NCBI RefSeq assembly: GCF_003663825.1 | Contig: NZ_RCCC01000001.1 | Location: 248,001 to 312,000 of the forward strand | Source: Acidovorax sp. 106 | GTDB lineage: Bacteria; Pseudomonadota; Gammaproteobacteria; Burkholderiales; Burkholderiaceae_C | Direction of reading: 5' to 3' | Length of the DNA: 64,000 nucleotides | Part shown: piece after piece, positions 8,279 to 25,431 of the stretch | How the letters are laid out: each line of letters starts with the position of its first letter | How positions within the stretch are numbered: position 1 is the first letter of the stretch | Notes under the pieces: model-generated | Told to the model about the DNA's origin: nothing | Database searches by the model: none | The model's input: only the letters and a program-made list of their open reading frames with translations | Program-made: the position numbers and the translations under genes

Positions 8279-8529
8279 GACCACCAAGGAGAGAATAAGA
8301 CGAACCATGGTGGTGTGGGGCGAAGCCCCGTCGCTACGATGAGCGCCGAGGCATCGCCCATTGGATGAGACGCTGCATCTTGGGGGATAAAACGTTACTA
8401 GCCAAGGATAGAGGGTGATATCAATTTGATGCCATGCTACGGCCATGGGCGTGGAGATCCCCTCGTTCTGCGCTCTGCCACCTGACATCCGGCAGCAGCC
8501 ACATGAAAACTAGCTGGCATGAAAATCGC
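8279..8529. other. Non-coding stretch after the RepC-like gene
   Basis: It holds a short GGGGC-GAA-GCCCC hairpin at 8317-8329 and a small palindrome ATCAATTTGAT at 8420-8430 that could be an operator. No gene, iteron array or T tract is apparent. Confidence 0.4.
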
Positions 8530-8558
8530 TTGACGTTCGGGGCGCGAAAAGCTACATT
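8530..8558 (+). promoter_or_regulatory. Likely sigma-70 promoter of the ParB-methyltransferase operon
   Basis: TTGACG at 8530-8535 and TACATT at 8553-8558 are separated by exactly 17 bp. Transcription would start near 8565 and give a leader of about 155 bases. Confidence 0.6.
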
Positions 8559-8672
8559 AGCTGCATGAGTTTTTCGCTCTCCATCTACACCTCACATCTC
8601 CCTCGCCAGACTACGTCTGCGCGCATACGGCCGCTCTAAGCGGCAAACCTCACCCAGTTTCGCCGCTTCATC

Positions 8673-8707
8673 CCGCTTGCAAACGCAAGCGGAGGGTTCA
8701 ACCCTTT
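8673..8707 (+). promoter_or_regulatory. Leader hairpins before the ParB-methyltransferase gene
   Basis: CCGCTTGC-AAAC-GCAAGCGG (8673-8692) is a perfect 8-bp hairpin. It is followed at once by AGGG-TTCAA-CCCTTTT, a second small stem with a short T run just before the ribosome site TTGGAG. The pair could attenuate transcription or mask translation. A 24-codon frame at 8565-8639 lies between the promoter and these stems, but it lacks a ribosome site. Confidence 0.45.
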
Positions 8708-8719
8708 TGGAGCACATTC

Positions 8720-10033
8720 ATGCGAACTTCTTCTCTGGCCAATCGCGGCCAAAATCGTGTCGTTTCGACACAAAAAACCCCCTCCTGCGCTGGCCAATCC
8801 GTTGCAGCGGTAGACGCTGATAAGACGCACACTGCGTTGACTATCGACCCCTGCTGCGAGGCGTTCCCGCCGATGCAGCACGACGAATTCTTGGGGCTCA
8901 AAGCCAGCATCCAACGAAACGGTCAACAAGAGCCCATCATCGTATGGAACGACCGCATTGTGGATGGCCGCCACCGGCTCAAAGCCTGCCAAGAGCTCGG
9001 CCTTGAACCAATGATCAAGCGATTGAGCTGCGACTACGCGCAGGCGGTCAGCGCGACCTTCGCCGCGAACATCAATCGCCGCCAACTACGACATGGTCAG
9101 CTGGCTCTGCTGGCCGCGCAACTCGCAACCCGCAAGCCGGGCCAGACCAAAGCAGCCAAGCATGTTGGTGCCGTTCTTTCCCAACCAGAAGCTGCGGCCT
9201 TGTTTGGAGCAACGCGAGATGCCGTCCAGAAGGCTTGCCTTCTGATCCGTGGCAATAACACCGCTCTGCTGGACAGTGTTCACAACGGCACCATGAAGCT
9301 CAATGTGGCCTATGAAATTTATAAGAACGGTAAAACTGGCTTGCGAGCGAAAACGACAGAAAAAGAACGCGAAGCGCTGCAAGTAGTTGCTGGCTTGAAG
9401 GAACGGCTGGGCGAGGAATCTCGCAACTTGCGATTGATCAAACAAGCGGCCACCAGCGCCAAAAACTTGGCGCTGCCTACCGGTGCACGCCATTCCATCG
9501 TTTTGGCCGATCCTCCCTGGGACTACGGCATGGCGGCTGACCGATCACACAGCAGAGTCCTTCCGCACAATCATTATCCGACGATGACCGTTGCGGCTAT
9601 CTGCGACATGGAGGTCGAGGAGATCGCGGCGGACGATGCCATGCTTTTCATGTGGTGCCCGGCCTCTTTGCTGCCCGACGGCCTCAAAGTCATGGCAGCC
9701 TGGGGGTTCGACTACTCCTCGAACTGGGTCTGGCACAAAAGCGGCGGCAGACTCAACTGCGGTGGCGGCACGGCGGCCATCCATCACGAACTGCTTTTAG
9801 TCGGCAAGCGTGGCGCTGGCCTGACCATCGTGGGCAAAAAGGCGAGGGAATCATCCGTTTTCAGCGCGTCGGTAAAAGGCCACAGCGCCAAACCCGCCGT
9901 GGTGCACGAGCGGTTGGAAAAGCTGTATCCCAAGGTTAGTCGCATCGAGCTTTTTAGCCGAGCGCAGCGAACGGGCTGGACCATGTTCGGCAATCAAGTA
10001 GGTGAGACGGTTGCAGAAAGGAAGGTGGCTTGA
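8720..10033 (+). CDS. ParB/Srx-domain and MT-A70 adenine-methyltransferase fusion protein
   Basis: Residues about 45-130 form a ParB N-terminal-like domain with VDGRHRLKAC at 81-90. A helical middle (about 130-245) follows, resembling the ParB HTH region (SQPEAAALFGATRDAVQKA). Residues about 250-425 are an MT-A70-type methyltransferase with the catalytic DPPW at 264-267. MT-A70 enzymes make N6-methyladenine in DNA or RNA. Fusions of this kind are mostly seen in phages and mobile elements, where they may modify the element's own DNA or regulate it. The ParB part probably gives site recognition. The start at 8720 has ribosome site TTGGAG. The next gene starts one base after its stop. Confidence 0.8.
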   Translation: MRTSSLANRGQNRVVSTQKTPSCAGQSVAAVDADKTHTALTIDPCCEAFPPMQHDEFLGLKASIQRNGQQEPIIVWNDRIVDGRHRLKACQELGLEPMIKRLSCDYAQAVSATFAANINRRQLRHGQLALLAAQLATRKPGQTKAAKHVGAVLSQPEAAALFGATRDAVQKACLLIRGNNTALLDSVHNGTMKLNVAYEIYKNGKTGLRAKTTEKEREALQVVAGLKERLGEESRNLRLIKQAATSAKNLALPTGARHSIVLADPPWDYGMAADRSHSRVLPHNHYPTMTVAAICDMEVEEIAADDAMLFMWCPASLLPDGLKVMAAWGFDYSSNWVWHKSGGRLNCGGGTAAIHHELLLVGKRGAGLTIVGKKARESSVFSASVKGHSAKPAVVHERLEKLYPKVSRIELFSRAQRTGWTMFGNQVGETVAERKVA

Positions 10034-10034
10034 T

Positions 10035-10940
10035 ATGGCCTTTACCCATACTGACATCACGCGCCCCTCCGATATCGACCGAGAACTAAAACTGCCGCCT
10101 GCGGTACGCTACTTTGAAGCAGAACCTGTCAGGACCACGGCTACCCTTGCTGAATATCGCGATGAGGCTGGTCGATTGCACAACGAACATGGCTTTGCCG
10201 TGGCTCTTGACGACGGGACAGAGGAGTGGTGGCGACATGGCCATGCCCATAGCGTTGACGATTGGCCTGCCATTTCTTTGGGCAATTCCAGCGAACTTGA
10301 CGTATTTGTTCCTTCGGGACTGCAAGGCGGCACCATTTGTGACCGGTTGGACTTCGGATCAGGGGCACTCGTGTGGTGTGAAGACGGTCTAATCCATCGC
10401 ATTGGAGATCCAGCAGTACAGCTGTGCCCAGGAATCTTCAACTACTGCGAATACTGGCACATGGGCCGGAGACATCGAGCCGATGGACCAGCGCTCATCG
10501 ACTGCTTCGAGAAGTGGTACTACCACGGCCTTCTCCATCGGTGCGATGGTCCCGCCGTAGTAAATACCAGCAGAAACCACACTGGGGTATGGGTCTGGTA
10601 CGGAGAGGTTTTCTGTGATGGCGCCGAATTGGGCGAGGAAGACTTTCCGTTTCACGAGCCACCGCCCGCGTTCTACATGACCGCGCTGTTGAGCATGATG
10701 ACTACGCCAGTGCTCCACGCGAAATCTATCGACGTCATCGTTGCGCGGATTGCGTTGCTGATGCCAGACTTCCCAGCCCTCTGGTTTGGGAGAGAAGGCT
10801 GCGAGTGGCACGAAATCCGCCGAGCAATCGCAATTTGTTTAGAGGAGCACACGACGGGAGTAGGCCCGAAAGCAAAGCGAAAACGAAAAGCCAAAATCGA
10901 TGTCATTTCTCTGCCTGAATTTTTTCTGGACGAGGACTAG
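10035..10940 (+). CDS. HRxDGPA-repeat protein of unknown function, coupled to the methyltransferase
   Basis: This is a 301-residue protein. Its middle contains about five degenerate repeats of the form G-x-x-HR-x-D-GPA (for example GRRHRADGPA and GLLHRCDGPA, with weaker copies HNEHGFA and HRIGDPA). Each is set between aromatic WYxxG strands, so a repeated beta-hairpin (MORN-like) fold is likely. Similar repeats occur in phage and plasmid proteins with no known activity. A basic segment (KAKRKRKAK) lies near the C-terminus. The AAGGAAGG ribosome site is inside the end of the upstream gene and the start is one base past its stop, so the two proteins are translationally coupled and probably act together. 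Confidence 0.75.
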   Translation: MAFTHTDITRPSDIDRELKLPPAVRYFEAEPVRTTATLAEYRDEAGRLHNEHGFAVALDDGTEEWWRHGHAHSVDDWPAISLGNSSELDVFVPSGLQGGTICDRLDFGSGALVWCEDGLIHRIGDPAVQLCPGIFNYCEYWHMGRRHRADGPALIDCFEKWYYHGLLHRCDGPAVVNTSRNHTGVWVWYGEVFCDGAELGEEDFPFHEPPPAFYMTALLSMMTTPVLHAKSIDVIVARIALLMPDFPALWFGREGCEWHEIRRAIAICLEEHTTGVGPKAKRKRKAKIDVISLPEFFLDED

Positions 10941-11016
10941 CCATCCAGTTGACTCAACTGCTTTCTGCCTCTGCTACGTCCCATCGCCCATAACTAGCTC
11001 AAAAAGGGCAGCCATT

Positions 11017-11066
11017 CCCGCCAGACCGGAACATGCCCATCCGGGCACAACCACGGCCCTGGCGGG
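11017..11066 (+). promoter_or_regulatory. Nested hairpin upstream of the five-gene cassette
   Basis: CCCGCCAG (11017-11024) pairs with CTGGCGGG (11059-11066) around an inner TGCCC-ATCC-GGGCA stem. No T tract follows. It lies 145 bp before the helicase gene and may be a terminator for the upstream operon or part of a leader. The 271-bp gap also has CAGTTG-ACT-CAACTG at 10946-10960, right after the upstream stop. No gene is seen in the gap. Confidence 0.35.
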
Positions 11067-11211
11067 CGCACCTCCCCTTTGCCGCATGGCTTATCCCAAA
11101 ACCTAGCCAACACAGATCGTGATGGCTTGGAGCTAAGTCCGGTCGCAATTGCCTGGGTTCGGGCATCCCCTCCTTCGCTAAGATGTAACCAAGGAGCGGC
11201 GGGAAATTGGC

Positions 11212-14200
11212 ATGAAACTCATCGACAACATCAACGAACTGCTGGGCGACGACATCAAGCAGTCGGTTCAGCCAGGCGCACGCCTCAAAATCGCGGCCTC
11301 CTGCTTCTCCATCTATGCCTACGAGGCCTTGAAGCGCGAGTTGGAATCGGTGGAATCCTTCGAGTTCATCTTCACCTCGCCGTCGTTCATGCCCGACGAG
11401 GCAACGGACGCGGCCAAGAAAGAGCGGCGGGAGTTCCACATCCCCAAGCCACCATCGGACACCAAAACCGAGCGCAGTTTTTATGGCACCGAGTTCGAGG
11501 TGCAGCTCAAAAACAAGCTGACCCAGCGCGCCATTGCCCGTGAATGCGCCGACTGGATGCGGCGTAAGGCCAAGTTCCGCACCAACAGCGGCAACGCGCC
11601 CATGCAGCAGTTTGCTGCGGTACAAACCGCCAGCGCGACGGGAGACATTCCCAATGCCGTTTACATGCCCTTGCATGGCTTTACTGCCGTTGATTTGGGC
11701 TACCAGCCTGGCAACGCCGTATCGAACATCGTCAACAAGTTCGACGAGCACGCCAACACGGGCGTATTCCTGAGCTTGTTCGACCAGATTTGGGCCGATC
11801 CCGCCAAGCTGAGCGACGTAACCAGCTTGGTGTGCGAGCACATCGCGTCGGTGTACCAAGAGAACTCGCCCGAGCGCATCTACTTCCTGATGCTTTACAA
11901 CATCTTCAACGAGTTTCTGGAAGACCTCAACGAAGACGTGCTGCCCAACGACCGCACGGGCTACCTCGACACGCTGGTGTGGCAAAAGCTCTTTAACTTC
12001 CAGCGCGACGCCGCCACCGGCATCATCAACAAGCTCGAAACCTACAACGGGTGCATCCTGGCCGACAGCGTGGGACTGGGCAAGACCTTCACGGCGCTGG
12101 CCGTCATCAAGTATTACGAGCTGCGCAATCGGTCCGTGCTGGTGCTGTGCCCGAAGAAGCTGGCCGACAACTGGTTGACCTACAACCGCAATCTCAAAAC
12201 CAACATCTTCGCCAAGGACCGGTTCAACTACGAGGTGCTGTGCCATACCGACTTGCAGCGCACCAGTGGTGAATCCTTTGGCACCCCACTGAACCGGGTG
12301 AATTGGGGCAATTACGACTTGGTGGTCATCGACGAGTCGCACAACTTCCGCAACAACGACGCCTACAAGGACAAGGAGACACGCTACCAAAAGCTGATGG
12401 ACTCCGTCATCAGGCAAGGCGTGAAGACCAAGGTGCTGATGCTTTCGGCCACCCCCGTCAACAACCGCTTCAACGACTTGCGCAACCAGCTGGCGCTGGC
12501 CTATGAGGGCAACTCCCTTCAACTTGGCGACAAGCTGCACACAGAGAAAGACGTTGAAGAGATTTTTCGCAGGGCGCAGGCTGCGTTCAACAACTGGACC
12601 AAACTGCCACCGGAAGAGCGCACTGCCAATGCCATATTGGGGGCCTTGGACTTCGACTTTTTCGAGCTGCTGGACAGCGTAACGATTGCCCGATCCCGCA
12701 AGCACATCGAGACGTTCTACGACACCAAGGACATCGGCACCTTCCCCGAACGCCTCAAACCTCTGTCGTTCCACTGTCCGCTGACGCTGCGCACGGATGT
12801 CATTGGCTTCAACGACATCTTCAACCAGCTCTCGCTCTTGAAGCTGGCCGTGTATGCGCCTGTGGGCTACATCCTGCCTAGCCGCATCAAGAAGTACGAG
12901 GACATGTACGACACCGAGGTGGCCAGTGGCGGCGGCAAGCTCAAACAGGCCGACCGCGAAAAGAGCTTGCAGGCACTGATGACCGTCAACCTGCTCAAAC
13001 GCCTTGAAAGTTCAGTCGCCTCCTTCCGGCTCACCTTGCAAAGCCTGCAAAGCAATCACCAGAAAGCGCTGGCCCAGATCGCTGCATTCAAGCAAACGGG
13101 CCGCGCCAGGCCGTTCACCGACCAGGCATCGGCTTTTGAGGATGCAGATTTCGACGAGGAAGAACTGCCCGAGTTTGACGACACGGGCGAGAGCAGCACG
13201 GGCGGCAAGGTCAAAATTGACCTTGCCGACATGGACCTGCCATCGTGGGAATACGACCTGAGCGCCGACCTGGCCGTGATTGATGGCCTGCTGGCCGAAA
13301 TGGACAAAATCACCCCGGCTGACGACGCCAAGCTCCAACACCTCAAAGCCCAGATCGAGCACAAGCTGGCCAACCCCATCAATCCGGGCAACCGCAAGCT
13401 GCTGATATTTACCGCGTTTGCAGATACCGCCAACTACCTTTACGACAACCTGGCGGCAGGCCTGTTCCAGGCCCACGGAATTCACGTTGGCAAGGTTACG
13501 GGCACCACAGAGCCCAAAACCACACTGCGGCTGACCGCGAACCCGCGCCAAGGCATCGACTTCCAGACCATGCTCACACTCTTTGCGCCCCGCGCCAAAG
13601 AGAAGGCACTGACCCTGCCCCACGAGCCCGGCGAGATTGATGTGTTGATCGCCACGGACTGCATCTCCGAAGGCCAGAACTTGCAGGACTGCGACACCGT
13701 AATCAACTACGACATCCACTGGAACCCCGTGCGCATCATCCAGCGCTTCGGCCGGGTGGACCGCATCGGTTCGCCCAACGCGCGCATCCAGTTGGTCAAC
13801 TACTGGCCCGACATCAGCCTGGACGAATACATCCGCCTCAAAGAGCGGGTGGAAAGCCGCATGATGATTGCCGACGTTACGGCCACAGGCGATGACAACG
13901 TGCTGTCTGCACAGTCCAACGACGTGGCCTACCGCAAGGAGCAATTGCGACGTTTGCAAGAAGAAGTCATCGAGATGGAAGACCTCAAAACAGGGGTGTC
14001 CATTACCGACCTCGGGCTCAACGACTTCCGCATGGACCTGTTGAACTACGTCAAAGCCCACGGCGACCTGTCCCGCCTGCCCAATGGCCTGCACGCCGTG
14101 GTGCCCGCCGATGCAGAAAAAGGCTTGCACCCCGGCGTGATTTTCACGCTGCGCAACCGGCTGCTCAGTGGGACGTCTGGGGCGGTGGTACGGCAGAAGA

Positions 14201-14547
14201 ACCGCCTGCACCCCTACTACTTGGTGTACATCGGCATGGACGGCACCATCATTGCCGACCACACCGAGGTCAAGACCCTGCTGGACCTGGCCCGCAACGC
14301 CTGCAAAGGCCGTGGGGAGCCAGTGCCCACCGCCTTTGAGCCCTTCAATACGGCCACCAGAGATGGCCGCGACATGACGGTGTATTCATCCCTGCTGGAC
14401 CAAGCCATTCACTCCATGATCAAGCGCCAGCAAGAGCAGGACGTGGACAGCCTGTTCTCGCCGGGCAAGACCAGTGCCTTGGTGCACGACGTGGCAGGGC
14501 TGGAAGACTTCGAGCTGGTCAGCTTCCTGGTGGTGCAGCCTGCATGA
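11212..14547 (+). CDS. PLD-like/SNF2 helicase-related protein, first gene of the five-gene cassette
   Basis: This 1111-residue protein begins with a segment that looks like a phospholipase D-like domain (LKIAASCFSIYAYEALKREL, then FEFIFTSPSF). An SNF2/RapA-type helicase core follows: Walker A DSVGLGKT at 285-292, DESH at 374-377, LSATPVNN, and motif VI QRFGRVDRIGS from 844. An acidic insert (about 640-665) separates the lobes. It should be a DNA translocase. No HKD catalytic motif is evident in the PLD-like part, so that part is probably structural or DNA-binding. It starts the overlapping cassette; AAGGAG at 11191-11196 lies 15 bases upstream. The ATGA overlap with the next gene indicates coupling. 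Confidence 0.85.
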   Translation: MKLIDNINELLGDDIKQSVQPGARLKIAASCFSIYAYEALKRELESVESFEFIFTSPSFMPDEATDAAKKERREFHIPKPPSDTKTERSFYGTEFEVQLKNKLTQRAIARECADWMRRKAKFRTNSGNAPMQQFAAVQTASATGDIPNAVYMPLHGFTAVDLGYQPGNAVSNIVNKFDEHANTGVFLSLFDQIWADPAKLSDVTSLVCEHIASVYQENSPERIYFLMLYNIFNEFLEDLNEDVLPNDRTGYLDTLVWQKLFNFQRDAATGIINKLETYNGCILADSVGLGKTFTALAVIKYYELRNRSVLVLCPKKLADNWLTYNRNLKTNIFAKDRFNYEVLCHTDLQRTSGESFGTPLNRVNWGNYDLVVIDESHNFRNNDAYKDKETRYQKLMDSVIRQGVKTKVLMLSATPVNNRFNDLRNQLALAYEGNSLQLGDKLHTEKDVEEIFRRAQAAFNNWTKLPPEERTANAILGALDFDFFELLDSVTIARSRKHIETFYDTKDIGTFPERLKPLSFHCPLTLRTDVIGFNDIFNQLSLLKLAVYAPVGYILPSRIKKYEDMYDTEVASGGGKLKQADREKSLQALMTVNLLKRLESSVASFRLTLQSLQSNHQKALAQIAAFKQTGRARPFTDQASAFEDADFDEEELPEFDDTGESSTGGKVKIDLADMDLPSWEYDLSADLAVIDGLLAEMDKITPADDAKLQHLKAQIEHKLANPINPGNRKLLIFTAFADTANYLYDNLAAGLFQAHGIHVGKVTGTTEPKTTLRLTANPRQGIDFQTMLTLFAPRAKEKALTLPHEPGEIDVLIATDCISEGQNLQDCDTVINYDIHWNPVRIIQRFGRVDRIGSPNARIQLVNYWPDISLDEYIRLKERVESRMMIADVTATGDDNVLSAQSNDVAYRKEQLRRLQEEVIEMEDLKTGVSITDLGLNDFRMDLLNYVKAHGDLSRLPNGLHAVVPADAEKGLHPGVIFTLRNRLLSGTSGAVVRQKNRLHPYYLVYIGMDGTIIADHTEVKTLLDLARNACKGRGEPVPTAFEPFNTATRDGRDMTVYSSLLDQAIHSMIKRQQEQDVDSLFSPGKTSALVHDVAGLEDFELVSFLVVQPA

Positions 14548-15236
14548 CCCATCCAGCGACTTCGCCAACGACTGCCCATGCCCTGTTCGTCTGGCCTGCA
14601 AAAGCCGCAGTGTCCCGCCCTGTGGCAAAAGCCAAAATCTATGCCCATGCCAAGCCCAGCGCCGCATTGCGCGCGCTGTTTGTGGAGCAGATCGAGAGCA
14701 TCACCTGGGCGTACAAGTTGGCCCCGGAGAGCATCAACCTGCCCGCCAAACCAGAAGTGCCTGAAATCGAAGTGTTTGAAATCGCCTTGAAGCTGCCGGA
14801 TGTCAGTCATTCGGTACTTCGGTGCATCGACAAGGCCATTCCGTTCCCCATCCTGTTTGTTCTGCGGCAAGATGGCAAAAGCCGACCCATCGCCGCCTAC
14901 AAGCGCCCCAGTAATGCCGCCAGCGACCAGTGGGTGTTGGGCGACTACCATGCCGCGCCGTGGCAGCCGGACAACTTGCCGCGCCACGGCTTACCCTTTG
15001 CGTTGGATTTGCAAGGCCTGTACGAGCAGCTTCTGCGGCAGCACCTGGCGGTGCCCGCTCGGGCTGGCGAGACTTTGCGCGACCAGCTGGATCGGCTAAC
15101 GCAGCTTCAAGCCAAGCAGGCCGCAGCGGCCAAGCTGGAAACCCAGCTGGCCCAAGAAAAGCAGTTCAACCGCAAGGTCGAAATCAACGCCCAGTTGCGT
15201 ACCATTCGCAGCGAGCTTCAAGCACTGGCCTTGTGA
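14544..15236 (+). CDS. DUF4391-like protein of the cassette
   Basis: A 230-residue protein overlapping the helicase gene by four bases (ATGA). It matches my memory of DUF4391, a family found next to helicase and type III methyltransferase genes: an N-terminal alpha/beta segment with FPILFVLRQDG and a KRPSNA motif. A Lys/Gln-rich helical C-terminus (about 165-230), likely a coiled coil, follows. No catalytic motif is clear. Its fixed place between helicase and methyltransferase suggests an adaptor or specificity role (inference). Confidence 0.7.
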   Translation: MTHPATSPTTAHALFVWPAKAAVSRPVAKAKIYAHAKPSAALRALFVEQIESITWAYKLAPESINLPAKPEVPEIEVFEIALKLPDVSHSVLRCIDKAIPFPILFVLRQDGKSRPIAAYKRPSNAASDQWVLGDYHAAPWQPDNLPRHGLPFALDLQGLYEQLLRQHLAVPARAGETLRDQLDRLTQLQAKQAAAAKLETQLAQEKQFNRKVEINAQLRTIRSELQALAL

Positions 15237-15248
15237 ACCGGGCCACTA

Positions 15249-15307
15249 CAATTGCTATATATTTTATAGCTTATAGCGCTTACTGAATAAGCGCTAGATG
15301 CCAATTT
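15249..15307 (+). repeat. Dispersed repeat copy A, inside the cassette
   Basis: A TATAGC segment followed by AGCGCTTACTGAATAAGCGCT: an AGCGCTTA/TAAGCGCT inverted repeat embedded in the roughly 60-bp family also seen at 34054, 49753 and elsewhere. It fills most of the 75-bp gap between the DUF4391 and mod genes. Confidence 0.7.
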
Positions 15308-15311
15308 GACC

Positions 15312-17183
15312 ATGAATAAACTAAAAATGCACAGCCCCGACCTGACGCAGGCCAACATCGACAAGCTGGTGGAGCTGTTCCCTAACTGCTTAACCGAAAC
15401 GCGTGGCGCCGATGGTGAGGTCAAGCGCAGCATCGACTTTGACCTGTTGCGCCAAGAGCTGTCCACGTCCATCGTGGAAGGCCCGCAAGAACGCTACCAG
15501 CTCAACTGGCCCGGCAAGCGGGAGGCGCTGCTAACCGCCAATGCGCCCATTGCCAAGACGCTGCGTCCCTGCCGCGAAGAAAGTGTGGACTTCGACACCA
15601 CGCAGAATCTGTTCATCGAGGGGGACAACCTTGACGCGCTGAAACTGCTGCAAGAGACCTACCTGAACAAGGTCAAGCTCATCTACATTGATCCGCCCTA
15701 CAACACCGGCCGCGACTTCATCTATGACGATGACTTTTCGGATGATGCAGAAAGCTACCTCATCCAGTCGAACCAAGCCGATGCGTCGGGTGCGCGGCTG
15801 GTAGCCAACACCGACGCCAACGGGCGCTTCCACTCCGATTGGCTGAGCATGATCTACGCCCGCCTGAAACTCGCCCGCAATCTGCTGCGGGATGACGGCG
15901 TGATATTCATTTCGATAGACGACAACGAAGTGGACAACCTGCGTAAGGTGTGCAGTGAGGTCTTTGGGGAAGAGAACTTCGTCGCGCAGATCATCTGGCA
16001 GAAGGTCTTTTCACCGAAAAATTCGGCAAGGTGGTTTTCCGAAGATCATGACTATGTGCTTGTGTACGCAAAGCAGGGAGCTGACTGGACACCAACAGCA
16101 CTCCCTAAAACGGATGAGATGCTTGCACGATACAAGAATTTAGACAATGACCCACGCGGGGTTTGGCAGTCAGACAATTTGACGGCACGCAATCGTTACG
16201 ACGCAGGACTGTATTCGGTTACCTGCCCGTCAGGGCGTGTAATCGATGGCCCTCCCAAAGGAAGCTACTGGCGATTCAGCGAAGAGAGCTTCACGAGACT
16301 TAACCAAGAAAATCGCATTTGGTGGGGCGAAGAAGGCAACAACATGCCCCGCCTGAAACGCTTCTTATCGGAAGTCCAGCAAGGGCGAACGCCGCAGACA
16401 CTCTGGTTCTACAAAGAAGTGGGCCACACGCAGGATGCCAAGAAGACGCTACTCAAATACGTGCCTTTTCAGGAAACAGAGAACGTCCTGAATTCCGTGA
16501 AGCCGGTCGAGCTTCTGCAACGCATCTTGCAACTGGCTGGCAAGCCGGATGACCACAGCATCATTCTGGATTTTTTCAGCGGCAGCGCATCAACCGCCCA
16601 CGCCGTGCTGAAACAGAACTTCGAGGATGGCGGCAACCGGCGTTTCATCGGTGTTCAGATTGCGGAGCCTTTGCCGAAGCCGGAGCCACGGCTCGGTTCC
16701 ATCTTTGAGATGGGTCTCACACGTGTGCGCAATTACGGAGCGGAGGTGCGCGGGCAGATCGATGGAGCGAAAGCGGATGTTGGCTTCCGCGTTCTCAAAA
16801 TCGACAGCTCCAATATGAAGGAGGTGTTCTACACCCCTGATGCGGTGACCCAAGACCTGCTGTCCGATCAGGTCAACAACATCCGCGAAGACCGCACGGC
16901 CGAAGACCTGTTGTTCCAGGTGTTGCTGGACTGGGGCGTTGACTTGGCGCTGCCCATCACAAAGGAGACCCTTGCGGGCAAGGCGGTGTACTTTGTGGAT
17001 GGCAATGCATTAGCCGCCTGCTTTGAAGAGGGTGTCAGCGAAGATTTCGTCAAGTTGCTGGCCAAGCGCGAGCCGCTGCGCGTGGTGTTCCGCGATGCGG
17101 GTTTTGCCAGCGACAGCGTGAAGATTAACGTGGAGCAAATCTTCAAGCTGATGTCGCCTAGCACCGAAGTCAAGTGCATTTGA
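15312..17183 (+). CDS. mod: Type III restriction-modification methyltransferase (Mod), N6-adenine type
   Basis: A beta-class amino-methyltransferase: catalytic motif IV DPPYNTG at 127-133 precedes the AdoMet motif I DFFSGSAST at 420-428. The segment between them is the target-recognition region and sets the DNA sequence methylated by the complex. At 623 residues the length is typical of Mod. The start at 15312 (ATG) is preferred; a TTG two codons earlier is in frame. Bases about 16000-16760 are more AT-rich and use different codons (for example AAT, TTA, CGT) from the rest of the gene, as if the recognition region had been exchanged. The stop overlaps the next start (TGATG). Confidence 0.93.
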   Translation: MNKLKMHSPDLTQANIDKLVELFPNCLTETRGADGEVKRSIDFDLLRQELSTSIVEGPQERYQLNWPGKREALLTANAPIAKTLRPCREESVDFDTTQNLFIEGDNLDALKLLQETYLNKVKLIYIDPPYNTGRDFIYDDDFSDDAESYLIQSNQADASGARLVANTDANGRFHSDWLSMIYARLKLARNLLRDDGVIFISIDDNEVDNLRKVCSEVFGEENFVAQIIWQKVFSPKNSARWFSEDHDYVLVYAKQGADWTPTALPKTDEMLARYKNLDNDPRGVWQSDNLTARNRYDAGLYSVTCPSGRVIDGPPKGSYWRFSEESFTRLNQENRIWWGEEGNNMPRLKRFLSEVQQGRTPQTLWFYKEVGHTQDAKKTLLKYVPFQETENVLNSVKPVELLQRILQLAGKPDDHSIILDFFSGSASTAHAVLKQNFEDGGNRRFIGVQIAEPLPKPEPRLGSIFEMGLTRVRNYGAEVRGQIDGAKADVGFRVLKIDSSNMKEVFYTPDAVTQDLLSDQVNNIREDRTAEDLLFQVLLDWGVDLALPITKETLAGKAVYFVDGNALAACFEEGVSEDFVKLLAKREPLRVVFRDAGFASDSVKINVEQIFKLMSPSTEVKCI

Positions 17184-18280
17184 TGGGGCGGCACACAATG
17201 GGTTTGGAACCTTTGGGCACTGATTTTTCTGCCTTGGTGCAGGCGCTCAGCGCCACACACCAGCAGTTGCAAGCGCAGGCCGCGCGGTCGGTGGACACGG
17301 CCTTGGTGCTGCGCAACTGGCTGTTTGGCTGGCACTTGGTGGAGTTTGAGAATGCGTCGGCCCGGCGGCAAGAGGTGTACGGCAAGAACCTTGTGGACAA
17401 GCTGTCAGCGGCGCTGAGCAGCCAGGGCATCAAAGGGGTCTCGCCGACCAATTTGCGCTTGTGCCGCAGCTTCTACGAGTCGTTCCAGAAGATTCAACAG
17501 ACGCCGTCTGTTGAATCTTCCGCCACAGCCCCCCAGCCCCCCGACCTGAACGCGTTGAAAGCCCAACTGGGCTTGGGCTGGTCGCACTATGTGGTGCTGC
17601 TGTCGGTGAGCAATGTACAGGCCCGCAGCTTCTACGAGGTGGAAGCGCAGCAGGCAAGTTGGGGCGTGCGTGAGCTGAAACGCCAGATTGCCAGCGGATT
17701 GTTCGAGCGCCTGGCGTTGAGCCGTAGCAAGAATGAAGTGATGGCCCTGGCGCAGGTGGGGCAAGTGCTGGCCAAACCTGCGGATGTGATCAAGAACCCC
17801 TATGTGTTGGAGTTTCTGGATTTGCCAGAGCACCCCACCTACTCAGAGCACCAGTTGGAACTGGCCATCATCGACAAGTTGGAGCACTTCTTGTTAGAAC
17901 TGGGCAAGGGCTTCTTGTTTGAGGCACGGCAAAAGCGGTTCACGTTTGACGACAACCACTTCTACGTGGACTTGGTGTTCTACAACCGCCTGCTGCGGTG
18001 CTACGTGGTGATCGACCTGAAAATCGGCCAGCTGACGCACCAGGACCTGGGCCAGATGCAGATGTACGTGAACTACTTTGACCGGCACGTCAAAACCGCC
18101 GACGAAGCGCCCACGGTGGGCATCTTGCTGTGCTACGACAAGAACGACGCACTGGTGGAACTCACCCTGCCCCAGAACAGCAACATCTACGCCGCGCAGT
18201 ACCAGCTGTATCTGCCTAGCAAGGAAGAGTTGCGTCAAAAAATTCAAGAAGCCGAAAAGGCATGGGAGGCGGCGCAATGA
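17183..18280 (+). CDS. YhcG/DUF1016-type PD-(D/E)XK nuclease domain protein
   Basis: A 365-residue protein. The N-terminal DUF1016-like domain reads [15 protein letters not shown] and [14 protein letters not shown]. The C-terminal nuclease domain has the expected motif spacing: D263 in YVDLVFYN, then D278-L-K280 in VIDLKIG. YhcG proteins are widespread near restriction loci and mobile elements and are thought to be DNA nucleases. The linker between domains (about residues 100-120) is encoded by a 33-bp perfect palindrome. The gene overlaps mod by one base and res by four, so it belongs to the cassette. Confidence 0.88.
17488..17520. repeat. 33-bp palindrome inside the YhcG-type gene
   Basis: The 16 bases at 17488-17503 (GAAGATTCAACAGACG) are the exact reverse complement of 17505-17520, around a single C. 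It encodes the interdomain linker ([10 protein letters not shown]). Confidence 0.9.
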
Positions 18281-21200
18281 AGCTCAAATTCAAGAAACAG
18301 GCCTACCAAACCAATGCTGTGGAGGCCGTGGCGGATTGCTTTGCCGGGCAGCCCAAGCGCGAAGGGATGAACTACCGCATTGACCCAGGCCGTGTGGTTG
18401 ACGCCAGCGGCCAGACGACTGCGTCATTGGAGTCATCAGGGTTCAAAAATGCGGATCTGGCCCTGACCCCCGGCCAGGTGCTGGAAAACATCCACGCGGT
18501 TCAGCGCAGGCAAAACCTGCCGCAGTCTGCCGCCTTGGTCAAAACCAAGGTGTGCGACATCAATCTGGATGTGGAGATGGAGACCGGCACGGGCAAGACG
18601 TATTGCTACGTCAAGACCATGTTCGAGCTGAACGCCCGGTATGGGTGGAGCAAGTTCATTGTGGTGGTGCCCAGCATTGCCATTCGCGAAGGCGTGTTCA
18701 AGTCGCTGGAAATCACAGCGGAGCACTTCCAGGACGACTACAAGAAGCGCGCCCGATTTTTCATTTACAACTCCAAGCAGCTGCACAACCTGGAAAGTTT
18801 TGCGAGCGATGCGGGCATCAATGTCATGGTCATCAACGTGCAAGCATTCAATGCCACGGGCAAGGACGCGCGCCGAATTTATGAGGAGCTGGATGACTTC
18901 CAGTCCCGCAGGCCCATTGATGTGATCAGTGCCAACCGCCCCATCCTGTTCCTGGATGAGCCGCAGAAGATGGAAGGCGGCAAGACGCTGGACTCGCTGG
19001 CCAACTTCAAGCCGCTGGCGGTGCTGCGGTATTCGGCCACGCACAAGACAACGCACAACAAGATCCACCGGCTGGATGCGCTGGATGCCTACAACCAGAA
19101 GCTGGTCAAGAAGATTGCGGTGCGCGGCATATCGGTCAAGGGCCTGACCGGCACCAATGCCTACCTGTATTTGGAGTCGATTGAGGTCTCAACCAGCGCC
19201 CCAGTAGCGCGGGTGGAGTTGGAGATCAAGCAGAACAACGGCATCAAGCGGGTGTTGCGCAAGCTGGCCCGCAACGACAACCTGTTCGACCTGTCGGGCG
19301 GCTTGGAGCAGTACAGGGGCTTCGTGGTGGCCGACATCAATGCGTTGACCAACACCGTGAGCTTTACCAATGGCCACGAGCTGATAGCAGGCGAAGCCAC
19401 GGGCGATGTCAGCGAATCCGCGTTGCGCCGCATCCAGATCCGCGAGGCCGTCAAAGCCCACTTCGAGAAAGAGCAGGCCTTGTTTTCGCAGGGCATCAAG
19501 GTGCTCTCTCTGTTCTTCATTGACGCGGTCAGCAAGTACCGCAGCTATGACGAGGCGGGCGAGCGCAATGGCGAGTACGCCCAGATGTTTGAGGAAGAGT
19601 ACAACCTGCAATTGACCGAGGTGATGACGCTGGAAGAGACGCCCTACAACCGGTATCTCAAAGGCATTGCCACCGCGCGCACGCATGAAGGCTACTTCTC
19701 CATCGACAAGAAGAGCAAGCGCATGGTGGACCCCGAGACAGGCAAGAAGTCCACGGAAACCGACGACGTGGATGCGTATGACCTGATTTTGCGCAAGAAG
19801 GAGCAGTTGCTCAAATTTGAAGAGCCGGTGCGCTTCATCTTCTCCCACTCTGCCCTGCGCGAAGGTTGGGACAACCCCAACGTGTTTGTGATCTGTACGT
19901 TGAAGCACAGCGACAACACCATCAGCCGTCGGCAAGAGGTGGGGCGCGGATTGCGCCTGTCTGTCAATCAGCATGGCGACCGCATGGACGCACCCGCAAC
20001 GGTGCACCAGATCAACGTGCTGACGGTGGTGGCCAGCGAGAGCTACAAGGACTTCGTAACCGCCTTGCAGCGGGACATGAGCGAAGGCTTGTCGGAGCGG
20101 CCACGAGTGGCCGACGAGTCTTACTTCACCGGCAAAGTGCTCAAAACCAGCGCTGGCGATGTAGAGGTAACCCCGCAACTGGCCAAGCAGATATACAAGT
20201 ACCTGCTTAAAAACGACTACACCGACGACAAGGACCGAATCGCGGATGCTTACCATGAGGCCAAGAAAGAAGGGACGCTTGCCGCGTTGCCGCCCGACTT
20301 GGCGGCCCATGCCGAAGCTGTCTTTGCGCTGATCGACACCGTGTTCAGCGATACAAAGCTGCCATTACCGGAGGACGACCGCAAGGCCAAGACCAATCCG
20401 CTGAACGGTAATTTTGAGAAAGCCGAGTTCAAGGCGCTGTGGAGTCGCATCAACCGCAAGGCGGCGTACACGGTGGACTTCGAGACGCCAGAGCTGGTGG
20501 CCAAGTGCGTGAAGGCCTTGGAGGCCGAACTCAAAGTGAGCCCCATGCAGTACACCGTGGTGGCCGGGGAGCAGGCCGACACCGCAACCTACGACGGCGT
20601 TCGCCAGGGCGAGTCCTTCAAGGTAACCGAGTCCACGACGGACTACCACCGTGCATCAGCCCATTCCGCCGTCAAGTACGACCTGATTGGCCGCCTGGCC
20701 GAAGAGACGCAACTGACACGTGCCACGGTCGCCAGCATCTTGCAGGGCATCAACAAGGCCGTGTTCAGCCAATACCGCACCAACCCCGAAGACTTCATGC
20801 GCAAGGCCGCGCGCCTGATGAACGAGCAGAAGGCAACGGTAGTCGTGGAGCACATCGCCTACGACCCCACAGGTGAAACGCACACCATGGAAATCTTCAC
20901 GCAGGACAAGCCCAAGGAAGATTTCAGTAAGGCGGTGAAGGCCAACCACCACATCTACGACTACGTTTTCACGGACTCCAAGAACGAGCGCGAATTTGTG
21001 CGCGAGCTGGATGCCAGCACCGAAGTCGTGGTGTATGCCAAGCTGCCGCGTGGGTTCTTCATCCCAACGCCGGTTGGCAACTACAACCCCGACTGGGCCA
21101 TTGCCTTCCAGGAGGGCAAGGTCAAACACGTCTACTTTGTCGCAGAAACCAAGGGATCGATGTCCAGCATGGACTTGCGAAAAATCGAGGAGAGCAAGAT

Positions 21201-21297
21201 CGAGTGCGCCCGCAAGTTCTTCGCCAAGATCACGTCAGACCAGGTCAAGTACGAAGTGGTGGATGGCTATGGGAAGTTAATGGAGCTGGTGGCGTAG
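18277..21297 (+). CDS. res: Type III restriction endonuclease subunit (Res)
   Basis: The 1006-residue Res-type protein has a superfamily 2 helicase core: Walker A METGTGKT at 101-108, a LDEPQKM Walker B, RYSATHK, and motifs [10 protein letters not shown] and [13 protein letters not shown]-terminal PD-(D/E)XK nuclease follows, with P938-D939 and E957-T-K959 ([14 protein letters not shown]). In type III systems Res and Mod form one complex that cuts after ATP-driven sensing of unmethylated sites. It is the last gene of the cassette and its ATGA start overlaps the nuclease gene. All key residues are intact, so the system is probably active. Confidence 0.93.
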
Positions 21298-21632
21298 CCG
21301 CGCATCGACCGACCGGACTCGACATCGATGCCGGGACGTCGTCATTTGCACGCCGTAATGCCGTCCTAGCAACGCTCATCGGTGATTGCGCGTCGATGGG
21401 ATAGCCCGCCCCTGCTGACTCAGTGGTGAACATTGTTGATAGCACGTTGTCTGGCTGATGTTTTGCCGACATTTCGCCGACCCGTGCTGTCGCGCGGTGC
21501 TGTCATCGAATGCTTTGGGTTGAGCTGCCGGGCATCAGGCACCTCCGGCACGACCGCCCCCCCCCAATTGGTTGCGCTTTTGGCCATGTCCTGTACGTTG
21601 ATTGCATGGGACTCCCAAGACACCAGATTCAC
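21298..21632. other. Non-coding stretch between res and oriT
   Basis: No convincing gene, MobC-like frame or T-tailed hairpin is visible. A run of Cs lies at about 21570. Short frames on both strands here do not resemble mobilization proteins. Confidence 0.5.
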
Positions 21633-21689
21633 TATCCAGTTCCTGGATACCAAGCGCACTTAGAAGTTGCCCCTGTCGGGTCAACTTCT
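21633..21689 (-). promoter_or_regulatory. oriT: Candidate IncQ-type origin of transfer (oriT)
   Basis: On the bottom strand a hairpin AGAAGTTG...CAACTTCT (21662-21669 with 21682-21689) is followed directly by TAAGTGCGCTTGG. This matches the IncQ/MobQ arrangement of an inverted repeat followed by the TAAGTGCG nick region. A second perfect hairpin, TATCCAG-TTC-CTGGATA, lies at 21633-21649. It sits about 140 bp upstream of the MobA/MobL relaxase, as expected. The nick would fall near 21654/21655. Confidence 0.65.
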
Positions 21690-21825
21690 GTTGTGGGCTT
21701 CGCCCCGTGCTGTCCTGCGTCCCCACGGCTCCCGCGTGCCGTCCGAGGGCGGACTGCATGTGTCAATTTGCCCGCATTGGCCGGGGTCGGCCAAGTGGGT
21801 GCGCGAGCAGCGCAGGTTGATACCC

Positions 21826-23934
21826 ATGGCGATTTTCCACCTCACGGCCAAATGGCACACCCGTAAGAAGAACAAAAAACTGCGAGCACTGCGTGCATAC
21901 GCTTATCGCGCAGGGGCCAGGGTCTTCGACCCGTTGAACAACCGGGTCTACAACTCAACCAAGAAAACGGAAGTGGTTCATTCGGAGACGGTAGCACCAC
22001 CCAACGCACCCGCTTGGATGCGCGATCCGTTAGCGCTCTGGGGGAACATTGAACGGAGAGAAACCCGCAAGGATGCCGTCTTGTTTGCTGAGTGGGAGGG
22101 TGCCGTCCCAAACCAGCTGGACCTTGATGCCTGCATCGCTATCGCTTCCGCGTTCGTCAACGATTTGGTGGGCGAGGGCATGGTCGTAACTTGGGCCTTG
22201 CACGACAAACCTGGCAACAGGCACTTCCACGCCATGGCCACCACGCGCAACATCGAGGGGGACCAATTCGGGGCCAAAAACAACCGCTGGCGGCAGCGCG
22301 CCTTGCTCTACAAAACGCGCGAGTGCTTAGCCGAGCACATCAACACCGCGTTAGAAAAAGCTGGGCTGCCTCAGCGCGTAACGCACAAGTCGTATGCCGA
22401 TCTAGGGATAGACAGAGAGCCCACGAAGCATGTTGGGCCCGAGCATTCAGGCAACCACGACTCACCCTACCAAGCCAAACGCGAAGACCGCCTGCGCAAC
22501 AACCGTCGCATCAAAACCGTCTACCAACAACGCAGCAAGCGTCGGCGTGCGGAAGCGCACAAGGGCCTGGTGGCCGGTGTGCAGGCGGGAAAGCTGATGA
22601 CGGCATTGCACGATCAGTTTGGAGAATCACGCCAAGCCGCCGCTCCACCGGTCCCACCGTCAACATCGGTCGAAGAGCTGGCGGCATATAACGACCTGCA
22701 TACGGAGCTGCCGGGTGCCGACGAAATATTCTTGGCAATGGGACGGGTTCGCGCAGGATTGGGACGGCAGTGGAACTGGCTCACACTCGCTGCCCAATAC
22801 AAGCGCTTGGATAAAAAATCCGGCGGCGATGTGCTCGACGCGCTGTTGGTCAAAGAATTGATCTGGGTAGCCAGCCGGTCGCCTGAGCAGATCGCGGAGT
22901 TTGGCAAGCTGGTGCCGCGCTCCCGCATGGCGAATATTGCGACAGCCGCCAGAGCGTGGGCACAATCATCACAGCCCGAGGTGCTGCATCTCATAGATAG
23001 CATGGTGGCCGGTGCGACTGCCTCTTCGCCGAATGACTCGGACAAGCATGCCACGCCCGCGAGCGGCGCTTCGTCGGGGCCCGATTTTTTGAGTTACGCA
23101 GATGCGTTAACACCACTGGCCTATCTCATTACCGATATGGCCGCGCTGGTGGGAACCTGTCAGCAGGTCGCGCGCAGTATCGAAAAAAAGATATCCCCAG
23201 ACATCCTGGCCAAGCGCATGAACCGACTGCTGGCGGGTGATACCTGGCCAGCCAACCAAGCCCAATTGTTGGATGCGCTGATCACTGGCGAAATTGTCTT
23301 CGCTGCCAAACGTCGGCAGCACAAACTTGCCGACGCACTGAATGCTGTGCCACCTGATCGCCGCAGTCATTTTGAGCAACTTGTTGCATCGGTGCTGGGT
23401 GCTTGCGTGGTGGATGCGGGCCATGCCGTGGCATCGCGTGCACTGCCTGCACAAGCCCAGAGGGAAGTGCAGGCCGAATGCAATCTGCGGATGGCACTCA
23501 GCGACTGGCAGCTGGCCGACTATCCGGCAAGGCATGACGCCATGAAGGCCGTTGGAAAGGACTACCCGTGGAGCGAGTTCCAACGGGACATCCAGCGCCA
23601 TGCTCAGCATCACAGTGGATGGCAGACAGCATGGTGGCAAGAGCAGCAAGAGGCGTTACAAGGCCGTGAGCTGGCGGCATTCGGCAAGCACTTACCAACT
23701 TGGTTCGGACTGCCACGTCCCCAGCAATATTCCCTTGCTGCCCATGACCCCAACCCGTCGATGTCGATGACGCGGGACCTGCGCGCCCCCAAAGCGGCTA
23801 CGCCCGAACCCTCACAAAGCGAGGCTATTGGCTGCATCTATCCTGCGCATCTGACAACCGAAGACCTGCCAAATCCATGGCGCGTTCATCCCGCTGCGCG
23901 CGACAACGGCGCAACGCCGGGAGCAACGGCATAA
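21826..23934 (+). CDS. MobA/MobL-family relaxase (MobQ type)
   Basis: The relaxase nicks oriT, stays bound to the 5' end and leads the strand into the recipient. Candidate active-site residues are Tyr25/Tyr27 in AYAYRAGAR and the metal triad H126, H133 and H135 (ALHDKPGNRHFHAMATTR). The start MAIFHLTAKW is the family start; earlier in-frame codons do not resemble it. The protein has 702 residues. About 400 C-terminal residues have no primase or other motif I recognise and are probably helical. No type IV secretion genes are nearby, so transfer would need a helper plasmid or ICE. Confidence 0.9.
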   Translation: MAIFHLTAKWHTRKKNKKLRALRAYAYRAGARVFDPLNNRVYNSTKKTEVVHSETVAPPNAPAWMRDPLALWGNIERRETRKDAVLFAEWEGAVPNQLDLDACIAIASAFVNDLVGEGMVVTWALHDKPGNRHFHAMATTRNIEGDQFGAKNNRWRQRALLYKTRECLAEHINTALEKAGLPQRVTHKSYADLGIDREPTKHVGPEHSGNHDSPYQAKREDRLRNNRRIKTVYQQRSKRRRAEAHKGLVAGVQAGKLMTALHDQFGESRQAAAPPVPPSTSVEELAAYNDLHTELPGADEIFLAMGRVRAGLGRQWNWLTLAAQYKRLDKKSGGDVLDALLVKELIWVASRSPEQIAEFGKLVPRSRMANIATAARAWAQSSQPEVLHLIDSMVAGATASSPNDSDKHATPASGASSGPDFLSYADALTPLAYLITDMAALVGTCQQVARSIEKKISPDILAKRMNRLLAGDTWPANQAQLLDALITGEIVFAAKRRQHKLADALNAVPPDRRSHFEQLVASVLGACVVDAGHAVASRALPAQAQREVQAECNLRMALSDWQLADYPARHDAMKAVGKDYPWSEFQRDIQRHAQHHSGWQTAWWQEQQEALQGRELAAFGKHLPTWFGLPRPQQYSLAAHDPNPSMSMTRDLRAPKAATPEPSQSEAIGCIYPAHLTTEDLPNPWRVHPAARDNGATPGATA

Positions 23935-23966
23935 ATGCTTGTCTGGCCGGAGCACCTACTGCTAGC

Positions 23967-24005
23967 TTGAAAGCGCGCGCACGCTGAACGTTCGCGCTCT
24001 TTCAA
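23967..24005 (+). promoter_or_regulatory. Hairpin overlapping the ribosome site of the 24016 gene
   Basis: TTGAAAG (23967-23973) can pair with CTTTCAA (23999-24005), and AGCGCG with CGCGCT in an alternative register. The downstream arm runs into AAGGAG at 24004-24009, so folding could limit translation of the next gene. Confidence 0.4.
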
Positions 24006-24015
24006 GGAGTTCAAT

Positions 24016-24657
24016 ATGTCAGATAAGGCCTTCCGGGTGCAATGCATTCCAGACAGCAAGTTTTGGGAGCGGCTGGCGAACAGCCCCTCCCCCAATGGCA
24101 GCTTCCCGGAGGTCATGACCTTGGGCAAGCAGATCAGCTTCTCTTACGCGCCGTTCAATGCGCTGGCCGGGTACGCTGACTGGGGCGACCCACAGCGCGC
24201 ACTGCATTACGTGGTGCCACCCACCCCGGCCCCAATCAGGTCCATTGGCTATCTCGTTGCACCGCCATCAGCGAGCACCAAACAAAGGCGTGTGTTTGTC
24301 GCGTTCTTCTATGGTCCGGGCCAAGCGGTGTTAGCAGAGACGCAGCCCATGACTTTGCTGCACAAGCCCTTGGGACTGCGGCTTGCCAGCGGTATTGTGT
24401 TCGGCGACGACACCTTCACTGTCAGCAACGTAGTCATCAAGGGCGACGACGCACCCATTCGCATCGCAATGGCCGGGAAAAACCCCGCCCTGACTCTGTC
24501 GATCACCGAGGGGCCGCCGCCGACAACGCCCGGCAACACGATGTCTGGTGGCTTAACGCAAGCCGAAGCACCGCTACTCAACGTGCTCAACATCAATGTG
24601 GGCGTTCCTCATCTGGCCGCGCTCAACGTGAACTTGCCAATGGCGGCGGTGATTTGA
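24016..24657 (+). CDS. Protein of unknown function downstream of the relaxase
   Basis: A 213-residue protein with an excellent ribosome site (AAGGAG, 7 bases before the ATG). I do not recognise it. It has no signal peptide or membrane segment. It is rich in small hydrophobic residues and Pro, and ends in a repeated Leu-Asn pattern (LLNVLNINVGVP, LAALNVNLP) suggesting beta structure. The stop overlaps the next start (TGATG). Being between relaxase and ArdC-like genes, it may serve transfer or establishment (inference). Confidence 0.7.
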   Translation: MSDKAFRVQCIPDSKFWERLANSPSPNGSFPEVMTLGKQISFSYAPFNALAGYADWGDPQRALHYVVPPTPAPIRSIGYLVAPPSASTKQRRVFVAFFYGPGQAVLAETQPMTLLHKPLGLRLASGIVFGDDTFTVSNVVIKGDDAPIRIAMAGKNPALTLSITEGPPPTTPGNTMSGGLTQAEAPLLNVLNINVGVPHLAALNVNLPMAAVI

Positions 24658-24923
24658 TGACGCACGCTATGGAGCAGTTTTTGTGGGCATGGGTCAAGCG
24701 ATTGTTACAGCCCTTGTTCGCCGAGGTGCAGCCCCACAAGGTTTCTGCGTTTGATTGGACATCCGCGCATTGGGCGGCGATGGCTCAGCAATCGCAATCA
24801 GGAGCGCAGTCCCGCTGTGCTGCGATGCAATCCAAAGAAGCCGAAAAGTTACGCCAGGCAGCTGAAAAAGCCACTCTTGCAAAGCAAAGGGATGACACAG
24901 CCATCGGTACGTTTGAGCTGTAA
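24657..24923 (+). CDS. Small protein of unknown function, coupled to the previous gene
   Basis: An 88-residue protein whose ATG shares a base with the upstream stop. It has an amphipathic N-terminus (FLWAWVKRLLQPLF) and a charged, probably coiled-coil C-terminus rich in Ala, Gln and Lys. No family is recognised. Coupling suggests it works with the 24016 product. Confidence 0.6.
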   Translation: MTHAMEQFLWAWVKRLLQPLFAEVQPHKVSAFDWTSAHWAAMAQQSQSGAQSRCAAMQSKEAEKLRQAAEKATLAKQRDDTAIGTFEL

Positions 24924-25431
24924 AAAATCATTGCCTTACGCGGCTTCGCCGTCCTCAGAACGGTGCAAGCGGCCGAAAGCACATGGGTCTCTTCGTGCCT
25001 CTCAACTTCGCATCCATCACGCCATTCGCATGCTCGCGTCATGCTGATTGCTGTGAGTTGTAGGCATGGTGCGGGAGGCAGCGCGTTGAACATTGTGCGG
25101 TCAGTTCATGGTTCGGTCCTGTCATGGGCGAAGGACCGACACCATGCACTTATGCGACCGCCCCACATCCACCGCGACAGTCCGCGTTCACCACTTGGCC
25201 CTGTTTTTGTGCTGGGCCGCTGTGGCGTTCTTCCAGATCGCAGGCATCAAAACGCACGCTACCGGAGGCCCTGCATCAGCTCCCAGGCCTGCTGTGTGTG
25301 CAGTGATGCGTCAACGCCTTTTTGGCTAAGCCACACGCATACCGTTCGTCGCCCGCAGCACATGCGAATTGGTGGATCTTCATGTCGGCGTTCGCTAGCT
25401 TGGGACGGTCAACCCACCCCAGGAGAACCAC
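24924..25431. other. Long gap before the ArdC-like gene
   Basis: Apart from a possible 61-codon frame at 25144-25329 I see no gene. There is no T-tailed hairpin and no repeat array. Its length would allow a single-strand promoter or regulatory region for the ArdC-like gene, but no motif supports this. Confidence 0.4.
25144..25329 (+). CDS. Possible 61-residue single-pass membrane protein
   Basis: It starts MHLCDRPTST and has one hydrophobic helix (LALFLCWAAVAFFQIAGI), then a Pro/Ala-rich tail. AAGGA lies about 10 bases before the ATG. It could be a chance frame in a GC-rich gap; there is no homology that I know. Confidence 0.35.
   Translation: MHLCDRPTSTATVRVHHLALFLCWAAVAFFQIAGIKTHATGGPASAPRPAVCAVMRQRLFG

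Follow-up and report, generated by a model that had tools for sequence, protein, structure and literature searches.

The cassette and its genes

The window analyzed here is a 64,000-nucleotide stretch of Acidovorax sp. 106 (assembly GCF_003663825.1, contig NZ_RCCC01000001.1, positions 248,001 to 312,000). Between positions 11212 and 21297 of the window, five open reading frames (ORFs) lie on the same (+) strand. The ORF map and a Pfam scan confirm the gene content proposed in an earlier note on this DNA: an SNF2-like helicase, a DUF4391 protein, Mod, a YhcG protein and Res. Judged from their sequences, these genes probably represent a four-gene extended type III restriction-modification (RM) system, consisting of the helicase, DUF4391, Mod and Res, together with one exchangeable cargo gene of the DUF1016/YhcG type located between mod and res. 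The cassette is composed as follows:

11212..14547, + strand: SNF2-like helicase/translocase, core gene 1 (1111 amino acids, PF00176 SNF2-rel_dom and PF00271 Helicase_C, PADLOC model PDLC01075); its N-terminal PLD-like domain is degenerate and lacks the catalytic motif
14544..15236, + strand: DUF4391 protein, core gene 2 (230 amino acids, PF14335 at 3.8e-56), overlapping the helicase gene by 4 bp
15237..15311, strand not applicable: gap with one copy of a dispersed palindromic repeat; the position of cargo slot 1 in other loci
15312..17183, + strand: Mod, type III adenine methyltransferase, core gene 3 (PF01555; PDB 6k0w and 4zcf)
17183..18280, + strand: DUF1016/YhcG PD-(D/E)XK protein, non-core cargo of slot 2 between Mod and Res (PF17761 DUF1016_N and PF06250 YhcG_C; PADLOC PDC-S02)
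18277..21297, + strand: Res, type III restriction subunit, core gene 4 (SF2 helicase and C-terminal endonuclease domain, PF04851 ResIII and PF19778 RE_endonuc; PDB 4zcf)

The mod ORF spans 15306-17183 and encodes 625 amino acids from a TTG codon, with the first ATG at 15312. For the yhcG ORF (17174-18280, 368 amino acids) and the res ORF (18262-21297, 1011 amino acids), the ATG codons at 17183 and 18277 are the likely starts. The longer versions beginning at 17174 and 18262 are probably unused, because DNA homology resumes at 18277/18278, the res start, in six of nine relatives compared. Genes overlap at three of the four internal junctions (ATGA at 14544, TGATG at 17181 and ATGA at 18277), slightly fewer than the four of five starts counted earlier. 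The junction between DUF4391 and mod is a gap of 69-75 bp, in agreement with the earlier note, which had also seen a repeat there. This palindromic repeat (15250-15300) is indeed present but belongs to a genome-wide dispersed element: it has 48 matches in the 4.88-Mb genome, at about 40 distinct places if the two strands of the palindrome are counted once (40 of 150 candidates scored). Its dispersal rules it out as an element of the system.

Mod and Res could be assigned to the type III restriction enzymes, as already suspected. Mod contains an N6_N4_Mtase domain (PF01555, 4.5e-34), reaches 756 bits with the PADLOC model MTase_III and matches PDB entry 6k0w (2.2e-75, residues 60-458 of 623) and EcoP15I Mod (4zcf_A, 8.6e-56). 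Res matches EcoP15I Res (4zcf_C, 2.4e-76), with the best stretch covering residues 60-670 of 1011. It combines the SF2 helicase with the C-terminal endonuclease domain typical of type III enzymes, which we take to be of the PD-(D/E)XK type.

Four of the five genes form a conserved core

With DUF4391 as bait, co-occurrence was examined across 398 genomes sampled within the phylum of the window. DUF4391 was found in 23 genomes, the helicase family (at least 340 bits to PDLC01075) in 21 and both in 20. One genome (G071) carries the helicase only, and DUF4391 occurs without the helicase in three (G018, G022 and G257), each time less than 400 bp from a contig end. Strong type III Res matches (at least 73 bits) are present in 41 of the 398 genomes, 22 of which also hold DUF4391, not always on the same contig.

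We then compared 109 loci: 20 from the phylum draw, nine plasmids hand-picked from the 97 whose cover reached 80% or more, and the best 80 of 378 confirmed loci on named genome contigs, a set biased toward the window's subgroup. Judged by these best matches, the host probably belongs to Comamonadaceae or a related group. Two of the loci (L005 and L049) are identical in sequence. According to tblastn, the order and strand of SNF2-like helicase, DUF4391, Mod and Res are the same in 109/109 loci. All four genes are matched in 90 of them, 18 run off contig edges, and one, L056, is interrupted downstream of the mod start. DUF4391 is preceded by a same-strand SNF2 gene in 108 of the 109 loci; the exception, L050, begins 164 bp upstream of DUF4391. 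This association of the four genes exceeds chance. The earlier note had linked a second helicase and DUF4391 to Mod-Res, and the Pfam and profile co-occurrence check bears this out for the pair: 20 of 21 genomes with a strong helicase match also hold DUF4391, and the pair is conserved with mod-res.

The same four-gene order is annotated on plasmids of Enterococcus faecium, Mycolicibacterium and Shewanella. On a Desulforapulum plasmid, whose gene table has known omissions, the helicase, DUF4391 and the methyltransferase are annotated without res. A divergent subgroup (L036, L040, L042, L045, L046, L048 and L055) carries helicases 43-46% identical to that of the window.

Among 47 DUF4391 sequences, the residues P18, K29, W55, E74, P102, K120 and E205 are invariant and the C-terminal stretch EKQFNRKVE is conserved. 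The protein found no match in the PDB (best E 0.082) and none among the PADLOC and NCBIfam models at E 0.001, and in the literature searched it is mentioned only as a table row of one paper. At the junction between the SNF2 and DUF4391 genes, a 4-bp overlap is present in 72 of 90 measured pairs, which argues that the two genes are a close pair.

Two further observations concern the surroundings of the core. The record of Erysipelothrix phage phi1605 (L164) contains the four-gene core with DUF4391 annotated as a methyl-accepting chemotaxis protein and with mef(A)/msr(D) macrolide-resistance genes nearby. Directly 5′ of the helicase, 11 loci (L003, L035, L039, L040, L083, L088, L097, L099, L101, L116 and L125) encode a cluster of proteins of 290-314 amino acids, annotated with a WYL domain in L003 and L035 and likely a regulator. 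A member of this cluster was not seen in the window.

The helicase has lost its nuclease motif

The helicase reaches 423 bits with the PADLOC model PDLC01075 ("C3a139 HKD+Snf2"), with residues 190-1109 aligned, and belongs to this family by its helicase body. Blocks corresponding to the helicase motifs I, II, III, V and VI are invariant among 35 aligned homologues.

The N-terminal PLD-like domain noted earlier is present by homology: this region aligns with the active PLD domain of L155, the nearest relative outside the four-gene set, whose helicase reads HGKLIHIDDG...GSSNFT and matches PF13091 at 3.2e-8. In the window's helicase, however, the Pfam scan reports no PLD domain. The pattern HxK...GSxN(F/L/Y)T occurs in 0/91 full-length four-gene helicases (window included; match over more than 90%, length 1040-1150 amino acids), with stray HxK elsewhere within the first 260 residues in six of the 91. 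It is kept in 6/6 relatives outside the set, the six next-best scorers L155 and L169-L173. In all six, a large Eco57I-family methylase adjoins the helicase; the retrieved stretches showed neither a type III Mod nor a Res. An active PLD nuclease in the helicase was rejected on the absent Pfam match together with the motif missing in 91/91, and for these two reasons the PLD-like domain should not be counted as a nuclease.

In a tree containing 31 four-gene helicases, these form one side of a branch with a support of 91 (Shimodaira-Hasegawa-like approximate likelihood ratio test, SH-aLRT). The simplest reading of the aligned sequences would be that the nuclease site disappeared once, as the helicase began to act beside Mod-Res, which brings its own nuclease.

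Two slots in the core carry exchangeable cargo genes

To score inserts between the core genes, we counted same-strand ORFs of at least 100 amino acids and defined cargo families as BLAST clusters, each taking its name from a single member that was scanned. The map missed the DUF4391 ORF in a few loci (e.g. L037, L082, L096 and L104), and the junctions adjoining it are unscored there. Inserts were found at 5/104 SNF2-DUF4391 junctions, 37/101 DUF4391-Mod junctions (slot 1) and 45/92 Mod-Res junctions (slot 2). No insert is present in 26 of the 88 loci with both slots scored, and in the phylum draw 10/17 loci carry at least one.

Altogether, 29 cargo clusters occur across the two slots. Slot 2 contains Schlafen/AlbA_2, DUF1016/YhcG, RhuM, Fic (SoFic), PLD or Bro-N genes, an AAA + DUF4276 pair, or nothing. 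Slot 1 takes mostly other families: a 900-amino-acid UvrD-like protein, OLD nuclease + DUF2130, SIR2 + HerA, Zeta-toxin-like, ORF6N, Bro-N, GmrSD and AAA_13, with single cases of a Fic and a Schlafen gene. Family content is linked to the slot: the observed mutual information between slot and family was reached in 0/10,000 shuffles, which ignore relatedness (one entry per occupied slot, families with at least three members, n=65). AAA_13 is of the PDC-S06 type, and several cargo families match PADLOC HEC or PDC models.

The window's YhcG protein contains DUF1016_N and YhcG_C domains and reaches 433 bits with PDC-S02, which places it in this family; it found no PDB match at 0.001. YhcG genes are present at 10/92 Mod-Res junctions, window included, and absent from the remaining 82. 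On this occupancy and its replacement in otherwise alike relatives, YhcG was rejected as a core subunit. The nearest relative, a Caenimonas locus (L059), is 89.9% identical to the window in DNA over 11184-15230 and 84.9% over 15289-17190, then shows no match until 18277-21301 (90.1%), and carries a Fic-cluster gene in place of yhcG.

The central target-recognition region of mod (about 15985-16780) is exchangeable as well. In L060, YhcG is kept and its DNA aligns through, with no match over ~15985-16780 of mod; in L064, a YhcG-cluster gene too diverged for DNA alignment accompanies a mod that differs over 15883-16770; L059 and L062 share the recognition region yet carry Fic and Schlafen cargo, respectively. 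These differing combinations among nine relatives indicate that cargo and recognition region assort independently.

Cargo differences between close relatives also occur elsewhere. An empty locus (L065) and one with Schlafen cargo (L068) are 90.6% identical upstream, 80.4% over the mod end and 91.9% over res. L035 (OLD + DUF2130) and L116 (900-amino-acid UvrD-like) share 95.1% upstream and 94.0% over the mod end and res, and for L075 (RhuM) and L086 (Schlafen) the values are 90.2%, 91.6% and 89.2%. Mapped onto a 75-helicase tree, the cargo labels require no fewer than 22 changes in slot 1 and 29 in slot 2. An exchange of the SNF2-DUF4391 pair was not seen in the locus pairs compared. The cassette fits the pattern of an embedded defence gene: yhcG is of a defence type, is exchangeable and is enclosed by the operon of a different system.

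Two inserts fall outside the slot scheme. A 367-amino-acid protein directly after res (L122:15691-16791, cluster also in L113 and L117) found no Pfam or PADLOC match and is a candidate for a new cargo family in a third slot. At L048:7163-8416, a Mutator-family transposase lies between two mod parts and was left out of the cargo counts.

The cassette lies on an integrated element

The 3′ end of a tRNA-Arg gene at 5996-6026 recurs at 28168-28198 (29/31 identical) next to a tyrosine integrase, which indicates that an integrated element about 22.2 kb long carries the cassette. An exact 20-bp repeat is also present at 5859 and 28055. Apart from the cassette, the following features were identified:

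5996..28198, strand not applicable: integrated mobile element with the cassette, tRNA-Arg 3′ end at both sides
7136-8278: RepC
8720-10033: MT-A70 protein
21667-23934: MobA/MobL relaxase
25432-26841: ArdC-like anti-restriction protein
26903-28027: tyrosine integrase, at the right end of the element

One element therefore holds both an ArdC-like anti-restriction gene and restriction genes.

Function of the core and alternative explanations

By homology, Mod would mark self DNA, and Mod-Res would cut unmarked DNA as EcoP15I does. The SNF2-like protein may descend from HKD-nuclease/SNF2 restriction subunits located beside Eco57I-family methylases and, after pairing with Mod-Res and its own nuclease, would have lost the HxK catalytic motif. 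As far as its sequence can tell, it may now be a DNA translocase or remodeller that aids restriction, with DUF4391 as its close partner. The cargo is probably a second, independent defence that perhaps acts when phage anti-restriction blocks the core. A more specific proposal, to which we give somewhat less than even weight, is that SNF2-DUF4391 is a novel type of restriction co-factor, a nuclease-dead translocase pair derived from an HKD-SNF2 restriction subunit. The pair would clear or remodel proteins bound to phage DNA, or signal that restriction has failed, and thereby let the type III enzyme work, and the operon would serve as a platform for exchanged, slot-specific back-up effectors.

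Several observations weigh against the extended four-gene system. The helicase count in the 398 genomes scored two candidates per genome. Several of the 90 loci matching all four genes have a split core ORF (e.g. L006, L048, L057, L069, L084 and L120). The support of 91 for the four-gene helicase branch lies below 95, in a tree with long branches. In a Res tree of 52 rows, loci without visible SNF2-DUF4391 nest inside both four-gene subgroups, although several of these contigs are truncated; this suggests that the pair may be lost or gained and is perhaps dispensable. On the same tree, the presence of the pair needs 7 changes, compared with a shuffled mean of 21. Finally, Mod-Res junctions also hold inserts outside the four-gene form: in the phylum draw, 8/18 four-gene loci have one versus 4/14 type III loci taken from these genomes for comparison (Fisher p 0.47), so such inserts rather reflect a broader tendency of type III loci. 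The comparison set started from 19 loci, of which five without visible mod (L137, L139, L140, L141 and L149) were dropped; among the 14 kept, the mod match of L142 covers only 16%, the insert of L147 consists of three short ORFs, and mod of L146 and L150 is cut by a contig end.

Among the alternatives, a guard arrangement survives best: cargo toxins would be activated by the core, or when phage anti-restriction inhibits it. By analogy, it could resemble PrrC and PARIS, which excerpts of PMC12707154 describe as guarding RM systems, and the cargo includes RhuM, Fic, AAA_13 (PDC-S06) and AAA-DUF4276 types. The independent assortment of cargo and Mod recognition region and the 26/88 loci without cargo make it unlikely.

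A second alternative is an ordinary Mod-Res type III pair, in which case SNF2-DUF4391 would be a defence system of its own that, as the cargo does, only happens to lie in this operon. The nesting of pair-less loci in the Res tree would fit, as would the more distant helicases (L155 and L169-L173), which lack type III Mod-Res within the retrieved stretches. Unlike cargo, though, SNF2 keeps a fixed position upstream of DUF4391 on its strand in 108/109 loci, and the pair was not found exchanged in the locus pairs compared; we regard this explanation as improbable.

That all five proteins form one complex with YhcG as second effector arm, as the earlier note suggested, appears highly improbable: the overlapping starts and the recurrence of YhcG in the same slot of distant loci speak for it, but overlaps do not prove one complex, since cargo genes too are joined by 4-bp overlaps, and YhcG is not conserved with mod-res, being replaced even between flanks 85-90% identical and assorting independently of the Mod recognition region.

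Comparison with known systems

With the extended four-gene type III system as the favored reading, the closest known relative of its enzymatic part is EcoP15I, whose restriction, as described in PMC4490356, we took as the model for Mod-Res. Res and Mod are homologous and mod precedes res in both, whereas here two further core genes are located upstream and cargo lies between core genes. With its occurrence across several phyla, on plasmids and in the record of a phage, the conserved four-gene unit would represent a distinct restriction subtype with DUF4391 at its center. PADLOC models would call the locus type III RM plus a PDC-S02 candidate, and none of them matches DUF4391. Our literature search by the parts of the system retrieved no description or name of it, and the set is not described in the excerpts available of papers on BREX-related systems (PMC12839542), phosphorothioate-linked HKD-SF2 systems (PMC10853773) and YprA systems (PMC12458937).

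DISARM also combines an SNF2-like helicase (DrmD) with a nearby adenine methyltransferase. Here, the DrmD models score only 145.5 and 97.9 bits against NCBIfam cut-offs of 610 and 950, and membership was rejected on these scores. DrmA, DrmB and DrmC are not the best match of any of the five proteins among the best 25 matches listed; the helicase shows a weak cross-match to DrmA (55 bits).

The HKD+Snf2 proteins beside Eco57I-family methylases (C3a139; L155 and L169-L173) belong to the same helicase family and have their domains in the same order. A literature search for the label C3a139 did not reveal its origin. In the HKD+Snf2 proteins the motif is intact, whereas here it is lost and Res supplies the nuclease. 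Disappearance of the HKD motif exactly in the setting of a second nuclease would be an instance of nuclease and motor dividing the labour.

The embedding of defence genes in other systems is already established. Excerpts of the respective papers name Hma (PMC8565338), place DarTG2 (PMC12255303) and second systems including PrrC (PMC12629846, PMC12707154) inside type I RM, and present PDC and HEC as guilt-by-embedding candidates (PMC12988326). As in these Hma-embedded, DarTG2 and PrrC cases, defence-type genes lie inside the operon of another system; the host described here differs in being of an extended type III kind and in having two slots of different content. Its near-identical loci with different cargo provide natural swaps with which the dependence of embedded genes on the surrounding system can be probed.

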